Source: Dysidea avara (taxonomy: Eukaryota > Porifera > Demospongiae > Dictyoceratida > Dysideidae). From it: DNA of 64,000 nt. A program made the position numbers and the translations under genes. Under the pieces are notes generated by a model. The model did no database searches, was not told where the DNA came from, and saw only the letters and a program-made list of their open reading frames with translations. The stretch is taken from NCBI RefSeq assembly GCF_963678975.1, contig NC_089276.1, positions 25,031,059 to 25,095,058 of the forward strand, in the 5' to 3' direction. Below, in pieces: positions 35,185-58,981 of the stretch (within the stretch, counting starts at the first letter, position 1; each line of letters begins with the position of its first letter).

Positions 35185-38100
35185 ATGGCGGATAAAATAC
35201 AAGAAATTATGAATATGCCAGAGTTCGACTTACAAAACTTTTCTGTTATCGGTGCGTTATTGTGTGTTGTGTATAGTTTTACATGTATAAGTAAATCTTG
35301 CAGCACTGAAAATTAAATTAGAACGCTAAGTTATTTGCAATACACAATACATGCAAAAAAGCCACGTGTCTGATAGTCAAGCAAGCTTAAGGTCTTTAGG
35401 CTGTTGGTTAGGTATGTGAACCATATTGGTGTGGTTTCTAGCAATGATATAATGAGCTTGAGGTGCTTGTGATGATTCTTCTTATTCATCTATCAATGTC
35501 ATGCACCACCCCCAGATAGGGTGGGGCAATATAAAAAGTCTAGTGTCAAATTCCCAGTAATGGGGTTTAGAAGTTCCATGATGTCCCCACCTCTGGTTTA
35601 TATAGGGGTTTTTGATTTACCTATCAAACTGCTGCTGGCAAAATCTCTAGGGGTTAGATGTCAAATCCCCAGTAGGTGTATGGGGACCCCCAGAGTGGGA
35701 ATGGGGGCTTGACATTGATTTGTGTATTACCAGTACACAGTCTGACACTTTCTTAGAGATTCTCTGAACATGCTAGCTAGATGCACTATTTATTTTAGCA
35801 AGAGGTTATCGTAATTATTACAAGCATGTTCCTATTGTACATATCCTTGACCTAGAGCTTATAACTTACTATAGCTATACTTATGCATCGATAGCTGCTA
35901 GACTAATCCACTCGCAACAGTAGTCTACTTTCATACATACGCTTTGTGTATACCATTCCACAAGCAGTCCATCTCCTGGTGGCTGGTGACTTCTCATCTA
36001 CAACAGTGCACAGCTACCCTATCATTTGAACCCCTTAAGGGATAAAGGGATTTCCATCCAATAAATTTGTGTCCGTAGTACTTGGGCTCCTCACAGACCT
36101 TAAAGGTTTTACTAGCTAGTGACTGTCTGTTTAGTCCTTTTCATCTTAATATTTCAGCAGCTGAAGGAGATAGCCAGCTGACTGAGATGTGCTTTTCTAT
36201 CATGAGTTGATTACCTATGGCCTTTTGCTACCTGTTATGAGCAGATAGTGTACAGTTTAATGTGAATGCTATTGTTCCTCTGTAATGTTTTGAATTCTTG
36301 TGTAATGATGCTTGCTGTGATATTTCACTAGACTTGGAATGCCAGGTACTTAGGAAGTATTACATTGAGTTGAGCTCGGTATTATTTATTGAAGACATTG
36401 CAAGATATTTCTTGTCTGAACTTGTTATTGATTCTGATGAGTTTGAACAAATATCTGATGCTTTTTCCCACAAAGATAAGGCAAATGTGATGCTTGGTAT
36501 CATACATCAAAAGATAAAGTCTGGTGACAAAAAGGTGTTTAAGATGACGCTTGATTCATTATCTTTCTATGGCATTGACAAAGTTCAGGCTGTAGCTGAA
36601 AAAATGAGACGTAAGCTGTTTGAGATGAGGATCAACAGAAGGAGTGAAATTAAACAGAGGATGAACAATAGGATACAAGGTTTGTAACACTGTGTTGGAT
36701 GTCATTTATTGAGATGCTGTGTGTAGTGATGATCAATGAACTATGAGCTAGGTCACATGATCTTCTGTTATATTTATAAGTGGTGTTAAGTAATCATGTG
36801 AAATTGATACATGGTTTATTGATCTTAACAAAGAAGTGCATAGGGAGGCAATATAAGGTGGAACAGAACAACAGAATAGCAGAATAAGCGAAAAATACAT
36901 TCTAAACATTTTCACTATTGTTTATACACTCTAACATTTATACAACCGTCACCTTGTAGGAACTCCGCAATCGCGATGACAGGTAACACTCAGTCAATTG
37001 TCAGGGCATGTTCAACCCGTAATTACACAACATTACAAACCAAGAACTATTTTAAAAGCACCTCTGCAATCAAAGTAGTTGAAAAATACAGACGATTTCC
37101 ATTACGAAGGGAAGCCATCACGTGCTACCCCTAAATCAACACCTTTTGCTGTCAGCAAAGATGAATGGGACACAAAGGAGGACACCAGTAAGTCCATGAA
37201 GAATGCATTGTATGTATTGCGGTATGCCAAAAGGCACGTGTCCAGCTGAAGCGATGTCAAACAGTGAAAAAAATTAAGCCTATAACCTAAACCATTGTTG
37301 AGTTTCACTTGTCTGAAGGCATGTCAGTCAGTTACTTAGTCAGTAGAAAATTCCGTTTAATTTTTTTTTTAATTTTGTAGCAACTGTTTGAAAGCATTTC
37401 GAGTCAATCAAGTATAATTTGCATTTTTGTCCAGACTCCATGTACAGAGTTTAGGTATCCGGATGCTGAAACCGGTATGTACTCATGTACTAGCTTTTTG
37501 TAGTACATGTCAAGGTAAAAGAAAGGTCCACTTTGTGATGCAGTGTGATATTTGCTAATAGTAGGGCTTGTCATGAAATAAGTTGATGCTGTATTGCATA
37601 ATAAAAAAAGCGGACATCATTTTTAGGTCCTCACACTTCTGCAGTTTATTGTAAACCATGTCAGTGGCATTACATGGAGATGCTTAGTACTGGCAGGTAC
37701 TTAGTACTGGCAGGTAATAAGCAAGCTTTATTGATAATAGCTTCATGCTAACACAGGCATTAACTATGTGCACTGCATGCCTTAATTGCTGTATTATAAT
37801 TGTAACTACTTGTAATAGGAAGAGAAGAGCGTAACTACTACTACAACGATGATGACCCAGTTGAAGTACCAGAATTTCCTGGATACAAAACAATTCTGCG
37901 CTGTAATGTTAAGCTGAAGACTACGATGACTAGAATATTAAGGAAAGCAGACTTCCCTGTCATCAGGGAGGCGTGCTACAAGCATGCCCGCACTGACCGT
38001 GGGCCATGGTTGTCAAAGCATTTCATCGAATCCATAAAGCTTGTTGAAACGGTTGAAGAATTGTTTGATGTTCTCCTTCATAACCAACAATGGGACTGGA

Positions 38101-58981: not shown

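Follow-up and report, generated by a model that had tools for sequence, protein, structure and literature searches.

A putative fusion of a CARD-family gene with a duplicated MAP3K1 copy in the sponge Dysidea avara

Here we describe a locus of Dysidea avara that probably holds a single gene fused from two sources, one a member of a paralogous family with the order CARD, module A, CARD, module B, and the other a duplicated copy of MAP3K1 (MEKK1). The locus lies in a 64-kb stretch of contig C5 (C5:25031059-25095058), which we call the window and in whose coordinates its features are given; the genome searched comprises 550.8 Mb in 108 contigs. The family gene would have supplied exons 1 or 2 to 6, and the MAP3K1 copy, with its SWIM-RING part lost, would have supplied exons 8 to 18, the joining break lying in the introns between exons 6 and 8.

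The 18-exon model, on the plus strand, was rebuilt exactly: 4863 nt form 1621 codons including the stop and encode 1620 residues, all 17 introns are GT-AG, and a single open frame runs from the ATG at 35185 to the TGA ending at 58981, as the initial annotation had held in proposing eighteen exons in consistent phase without an internal stop. The start codon stands in the context aacaaaaATGGCG, and an AATAAA at 59072 lies 91 nt past the stop codon. Elsewhere in the window are an aquaporin-type exon on the minus strand (5374-5784; MIP, PF00230, 1.1e-11) and an Arg-Ser-Pro-rich open reading frame (30942-31619) that resembles splicing-factor tails by eye and has no Pfam match at 0.001.

CARD exons, modules A and B and their paralogues

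Exon 1 (35185-35251; donor 7.6 bits) carries the start codon and the first 22 residues, and the next four exons alternate between CARD-type domains and the two modules. Exon 4 (40073-40342) is a CARD by Pfam (PF00619, E=1.1e-5, 25.8 bits against a cut-off of 23.9); its best match in the PDB is a designed protein (2.8e-4), followed by IFIH1 (0.008) and APAF1 (0.014). Exon 2 (36332-36679) has no Pfam match. On a profile built from eight CARDs of the same genome it scores 20.1 bits, where 2000 shuffled versions of exon 2 reach 9.1 at most, exon 4 itself scores 19.8 and a Death domain of the family 1.7; hhalign of exon 2 and one family relative against this profile gives a probability of 87.7. A single-sequence structure prediction of exon 2 is helical, at a pLDDT (55.5) too weak to use. 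These profile scores suggest that exon 2 is probably a CARD. Of the two CARD-like domains read in these exons by the initial annotation, which proposed profile searches of both, the second is upheld by Pfam and the first is probable on the same-genome profile. A genome-wide CARD search found at least 127 places, counted by exon (150 of 331 candidates scored), and neither CARD of the window is among the places listed; PMC12909245 counts 39 CARD genes in this species.

Exons 3 (37819-38559) and 5 (42920-43788) encode modules A and B, which the initial annotation had described as W-x-x-P modules. Both are conserved domains, and the reading of two modules of one kind is supported. Module B matches the module A found in paralogues (14 open reading frames compared, best 3.4e-8) but not clearly the window's own module A (0.04). 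The modules are not one-off: module A has at least 104 related places in the genome and module B at least 116, both counts being lower bounds (150 of 154 and 135 of 207 candidates scored), so that each belongs to a large paralogous set, often with a kinase downstream. Searches of the PDB with profiles and members gave no convincing relative of module A or B (best E 0.069 and 0.52). In Pfam, the best match of module A was PP-binding_2 (0.0051, in 1 of 12 A sequences) and that of module B was IL11 (0.0077, in 2 of 8 B sequences), each under the cut-off where one is shown. The single-sequence structure prediction of module B (pLDDT 36.6) is likewise too weak to use.

At part of these places the modules recur in order. 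Of the 116 listed B places, 43 are preceded on their strand by an A no more than 8 kb away (the window pair is 4.4 kb apart, also on one strand). A kinase follows on the same strand within 65 kb, before any further B, at 34 places, and A, B and kinase stand in order at 26. In 300 rotations of the B positions the corresponding means were 0.12, 0.53 and 0.05 and the maxima 2, 5 and 1. The kinases counted here are the 44 highest-ranking of 139 listed, and the evidence on these relatives is the order and spacing of places, not full gene models. The window's own B falls outside the 26 sets because its MEKK1-type kinase is absent from the kinase set; the family's own kinase type is not downstream of it, and a search with the kinase type of the family locus on contig C6 gave no match in the window among at least 139 listed places (138 of 920 candidates scored). 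Clusters of A-B-kinase sets lie at C5:26.4-41.6 Mb, C6:33.9-34.9 Mb and C15:2.9-3.9 Mb.

Four family loci were read, and all four carry a CARD-like exon between A and B. All of these exons stay below the cut-off of the Pfam CARD profile (the highest at 17.0 bits), and on the same-genome CARD profile they score 10.6 to 22.4 bits. Ahead of A, the C6 locus has a Death domain (PF00531, 3.1e-6) and the locus on contig C1 a CARD-like stretch (12.0 bits, no Pfam match); for the other two, Pfam and the same-genome CARD profile identified no first domain. The stretch C6:33935001-33955000 carries, on one strand, Death, A, a CARD-like exon, B and a kinase, with Kelch repeats further downstream, and a coiled coil in the family was judged by eye. 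The window gene resembles these paralogues in module A, the CARD-like exon, module B, the post-B exon and, in many cases, a downstream kinase, with a first domain that is Death in one and CARD-like in another of the four loci; it differs in having a MEKK1-type TOG and kinase where they have their own kinase type, and no Kelch match.

The MAP3K1-type half and its paralogue

The C-terminal half of the protein, searched as residues 766-1620, contains a TOG-like region (PF21040, E=5.6e-9) that precedes a kinase (PF00069, E=6.6e-45), as in MAP3K1. The TOG domain occupies exon 9 (46920-47171), exon 10 (47225-47346) and exon 11 (47431-48343), the last of which also holds a charged linker; all three are covered by the match to human MEKK1 in the PDB (6whb, E=2.7e-11; next match 0.34) and by the alignment or introns of a paralogue in the same genome. 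Exon 12 (48556-48714) is the linker to the kinase, and alignment with the paralogue assigns beta1 to beta3 of the kinase to exon 13 (48769-48900), the alpha-C Glu region to exon 14 (57155-57308), the HRD region to exon 15 (57501-57632), the catalytic-loop Asn and DFG positions to exon 16 (57825-57973), and the C-lobe to exon 17 (58025-58156); exon 18 (58826-58981) holds the end of the kinase and the stop codon. The nearest place to the window kinase elsewhere in the genome is this same paralogue (124 of 263 aligned residues identical). Among the matches shown, the best in the PDB are MAP3K5 and then MAP3K2, and the best in the protein databases is MAP3K19, with no MAP3K1 kinase in either. The TOG-like region and MAP3K1-type kinase of the initial annotation are borne out by 6whb, PF21040 and the paralogue's identity and introns.

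A whole-genome TOG search returned four places. Besides the window and C5:38.83 Mb there are two weak pieces, near C5:38.97 Mb and C5:39.25 Mb. These two are partial, at C5:38969566-38969877 (with four stops) and C5:39246206-39246430, both on the minus strand. The place at C5:38.83 Mb, on the minus strand and 13.7 Mb from the window on the same contig, looks like a canonical MAP3K1, its domains following one another as SWIM, RING, TOG and kinase; its SWIM (17.3 bits, cut-off 19.6) and RING (26.3 bits, cut-off 27.3), scored on pieces joined by hand across introns, both fall just under their cut-offs. Neither domain has a Pfam match in the window protein at E up to 1, whether in residues 1-765 or 766-1620. 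Because the genome retains this canonical-looking copy, we rejected the idea that the window gene is simply this animal's MAP3K1 with another N-terminus and regard it as a diverged paralogue.

In the common TOG-kinase part, seven of nine introns agree between window gene and paralogue in both aligned codon and phase, the exon ends of the latter being placed by GT-AG and similarity; the two unmatched introns flank exon 12, in unconserved linker. These shared positions are most simply explained if the window's C-terminal half arose by genomic duplication of MAP3K1 and not by retrocopying. A transposon-like open reading frame (DUF7869; PF25273, E=6.2e-21) lies at 52567-53274 on the plus strand, inside intron 13 but not belonging to the gene, with more open frames at 49216-50870 in the same intron. 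We rejected the possibility that it disrupts the kinase between exons 13 and 14, because the paralogue carries an intron at the same position. The likeness to MAP3K1 thus covers TOG, kinase and intron positions, whereas MAP3K1 has SWIM, RING and catalytic motifs of its own and the window gene has CARD-A-CARD-B instead, its motifs lost.

The junction between the halves

The two halves meet in exons 6 to 8. Exon 6 (45001-45090) resembles the start of the family's post-B exon: six of ten family loci begin this exon with E-I-P-K in phase 0, exon 6 begins with E-V-P in phase 0, and against five of the six E-I-P-K sequences 27 of 50000 shuffles score as high. Exon 8 (46403-46523) resembles the pre-TOG exon of the MAP3K1 paralogue. 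Both exons are entered in phase 2 and left in phase 0, the paralogue exon (start 28013, read by hand) with the end ..SFFLDSYLPEKLYDYLMKLEK and exon 8 with the end ..TYLIDLWLSKNLPYYCHQLEQ. Their end-anchored alignment, chosen by eye, is equalled in score by 2 of 20000 shuffles. A tblastn search of exons 6 to 8 against the paralogue locus gave nothing (best E 3.3), the exon 8 match included. Since exon 6 is like the A-B family and exon 8 like MAP3K1, the break between the CARD-family half and the MAP3K1 half most likely lies between these two exons.

Exon 7 (46158-46213), a small bridging exon that makes the phases fit, is the weak link. On a scale for splice sites that was trained on the paralogue and on the remaining sites of the gene, the exon 6 to 8 junctions being left out, it ranks fifth of 57 phase-compatible bridging candidates. 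The weakest splice sites of the gene are the exon 4 donor (0.6 bits) and the acceptors of exon 7 (2.7 bits) and exon 8 (1.6 bits); the exon 6 donor scores 7.3 bits. A direct splice from exon 6 to exon 8 was rejected: in-phase acceptors score -0.8 at most, and donors that keep the phase either have a score of -1.1 or are reached only past stop codons.

The strongest competing explanation, unlikely but with an appreciable chance of being right, is that two adjacent genes are present: a CARD-A-CARD-B gene without kinase whose last exon is 5 or 6, and a short gene for a MEKK1-like pseudokinase starting at an ATG in exon 7. Exon 7 has such an in-frame ATG (residue 807), which makes a separate gene for the MEKK1 half possible. 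Reading through from exon 6 halts after two more codons (MVI, then stop), and directly after the exon 5 donor come a stop and an AATAAA (43813). Three further AATAAA lie in intron 6 (45647, 45847 and 45925), though the 16.4 kb scanned hold 15 such motifs in all. Relatives without a kinase would also be in keeping with two genes, as 82 of the 116 listed B places have none of the 44 kinases within 65 kb, and exon 7 is neither unique nor, like exon 8, endowed with a strong acceptor. Against two genes stands the C at -3 of that ATG, although it has G at +4. Each half, on the same strand, supplies what the other is without, and downstream of B there is exon 6 with its 7.3-bit donor. An in-frame Met is absent from exons 8 and 9, and the MEKK1 half therefore depends on a coding exon further upstream that enters it in phase 2. 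A kinase after B is moreover a recurring layout in this genome, which counts against a separate gene for the MEKK1 half. We therefore prefer a single fused gene, in which we infer co-transcription across exons 6 to 8.

It is very unlikely that the locus makes no protein, whether as a pseudogene in decay or as a chimera created by the assembly. The weak splice sites at exons 4, 7 and 8 would fit such an origin, as would the transposon-like frame in intron 13 and an inverted-repeat element in intron 6; 1620 codons without a stop and splice phases common to the gene and its paralogue argue against it. The element in intron 6 is a 546-bp stretch (45143-45688) with perfect 18-bp inverted ends, and intron 3 contains a long CA/AC dinucleotide run (about 39112-39326).

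Pseudokinase motifs and the predicted role of the fused protein

The initial annotation spoke of a pseudokinase, and alignment with the paralogue shows which of the conserved kinase motifs (glycine loop, HRD, DFG, beta3 Lys, alpha-C Glu) are lost. In exon 13 the glycine loop is shortened and GxGxxG is absent. The catalytic loop, HRDLKGAN in the paralogue, reads HRNLCDAT, which replaces the HRD Asp with Asn in exon 15 and the loop's own Asn with Thr in exon 16, and the Lys with Cys. In exon 16 the paralogue's DLG has become DLS, a change that removes the DFG Gly but keeps the Asp. Also retained are the beta3 Lys and the alpha-C Glu. From these substitutions the window kinase is probably catalytically dead. 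The four family kinases read in the C6 cluster also have Asn for the HRD Asp and have lost the DFG Gly, with the glycine loop kept. Kinases of the WNK type are active through compensating residues, and the beta3 Lys, alpha-C Glu and DLS Asp remain here; an active CARD-MAP3K of that kind is nevertheless very unlikely, with the glycine loop and three catalytic-loop residues (the HRD Asp, Lys and Asn) gone and Asn in place of the HRD Asp in the C6 family kinases as well.

The product of the fused gene would most likely be a scaffold, not an enzyme. Its two CARDs, helped by modules A and B, may place the protein into CARD assemblies, and the TOG-like domain may hold tubulin, by analogy with human MEKK1; curved-tubulin binding by the human MAP3K1 TOG is reported in PMC13072407. 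The dead kinase, keeping a MEKK1 surface, could bind partners of MAP3K1, either MAP2Ks or MAP3K1 itself, and such binding would focus or restrain MAPK signalling at a CARD assembly, the direction being conjectural.

Death-fold domains and kinases are combined in principle in RIPK1, RIPK2 and IRAK, which resemble the window gene in joining the two in one protein and differ from it in having one death-fold domain, no TOG, and another order and kinase type. The CARD-coiled-coil proteins CARD9, CARD10, CARD11 and CARD14 share with the window protein a CARD that seeds assembly in a scaffold upstream of signalling, and differ in having no kinase and no TOG, with a MAGUK in some. On these proteins, see PMC5978004. 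Protein-database searches found no whole-protein relative outside this genome, only distant kinases or nothing. Because they returned no vertebrate MAP3K1 either, they are insensitive and hardly bear on absence elsewhere. We found no description of a CARD-MAP3K1 fusion or of the A-B family in the literature, including the available parts of PMC12909245, PMC13072407 and PMC6208332, a partial coverage that makes this weak evidence.

More broadly, and more tentatively than for the fusion itself, the window gene may be one member of a large, undescribed class of scaffolds with the order CARD or Death, A, CARD, B, coiled coil, pseudokinase, in which the kinase is exchangeable and one member captured the TOG-kinase half of MAP3K1. 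The A-B family, represented in this one genome by 26 ordered A-B-kinase sets, seems open ground for animal innate immunity. In vertebrates the route from CARD assemblies to MAP kinases runs through successive adaptors and ubiquitin. Should transcripts confirm the join, the window gene would supply a new physical link from CARD-type assembly to MAP-kinase signalling, a dedicated protein tying the assembly directly to a MAPK module and perhaps to microtubules. Such a protein, with both ends in one chain, would show that the link could be hard-wired in an early-branching animal, and it would make kinase capture by a family of death-fold scaffolds open to testing.
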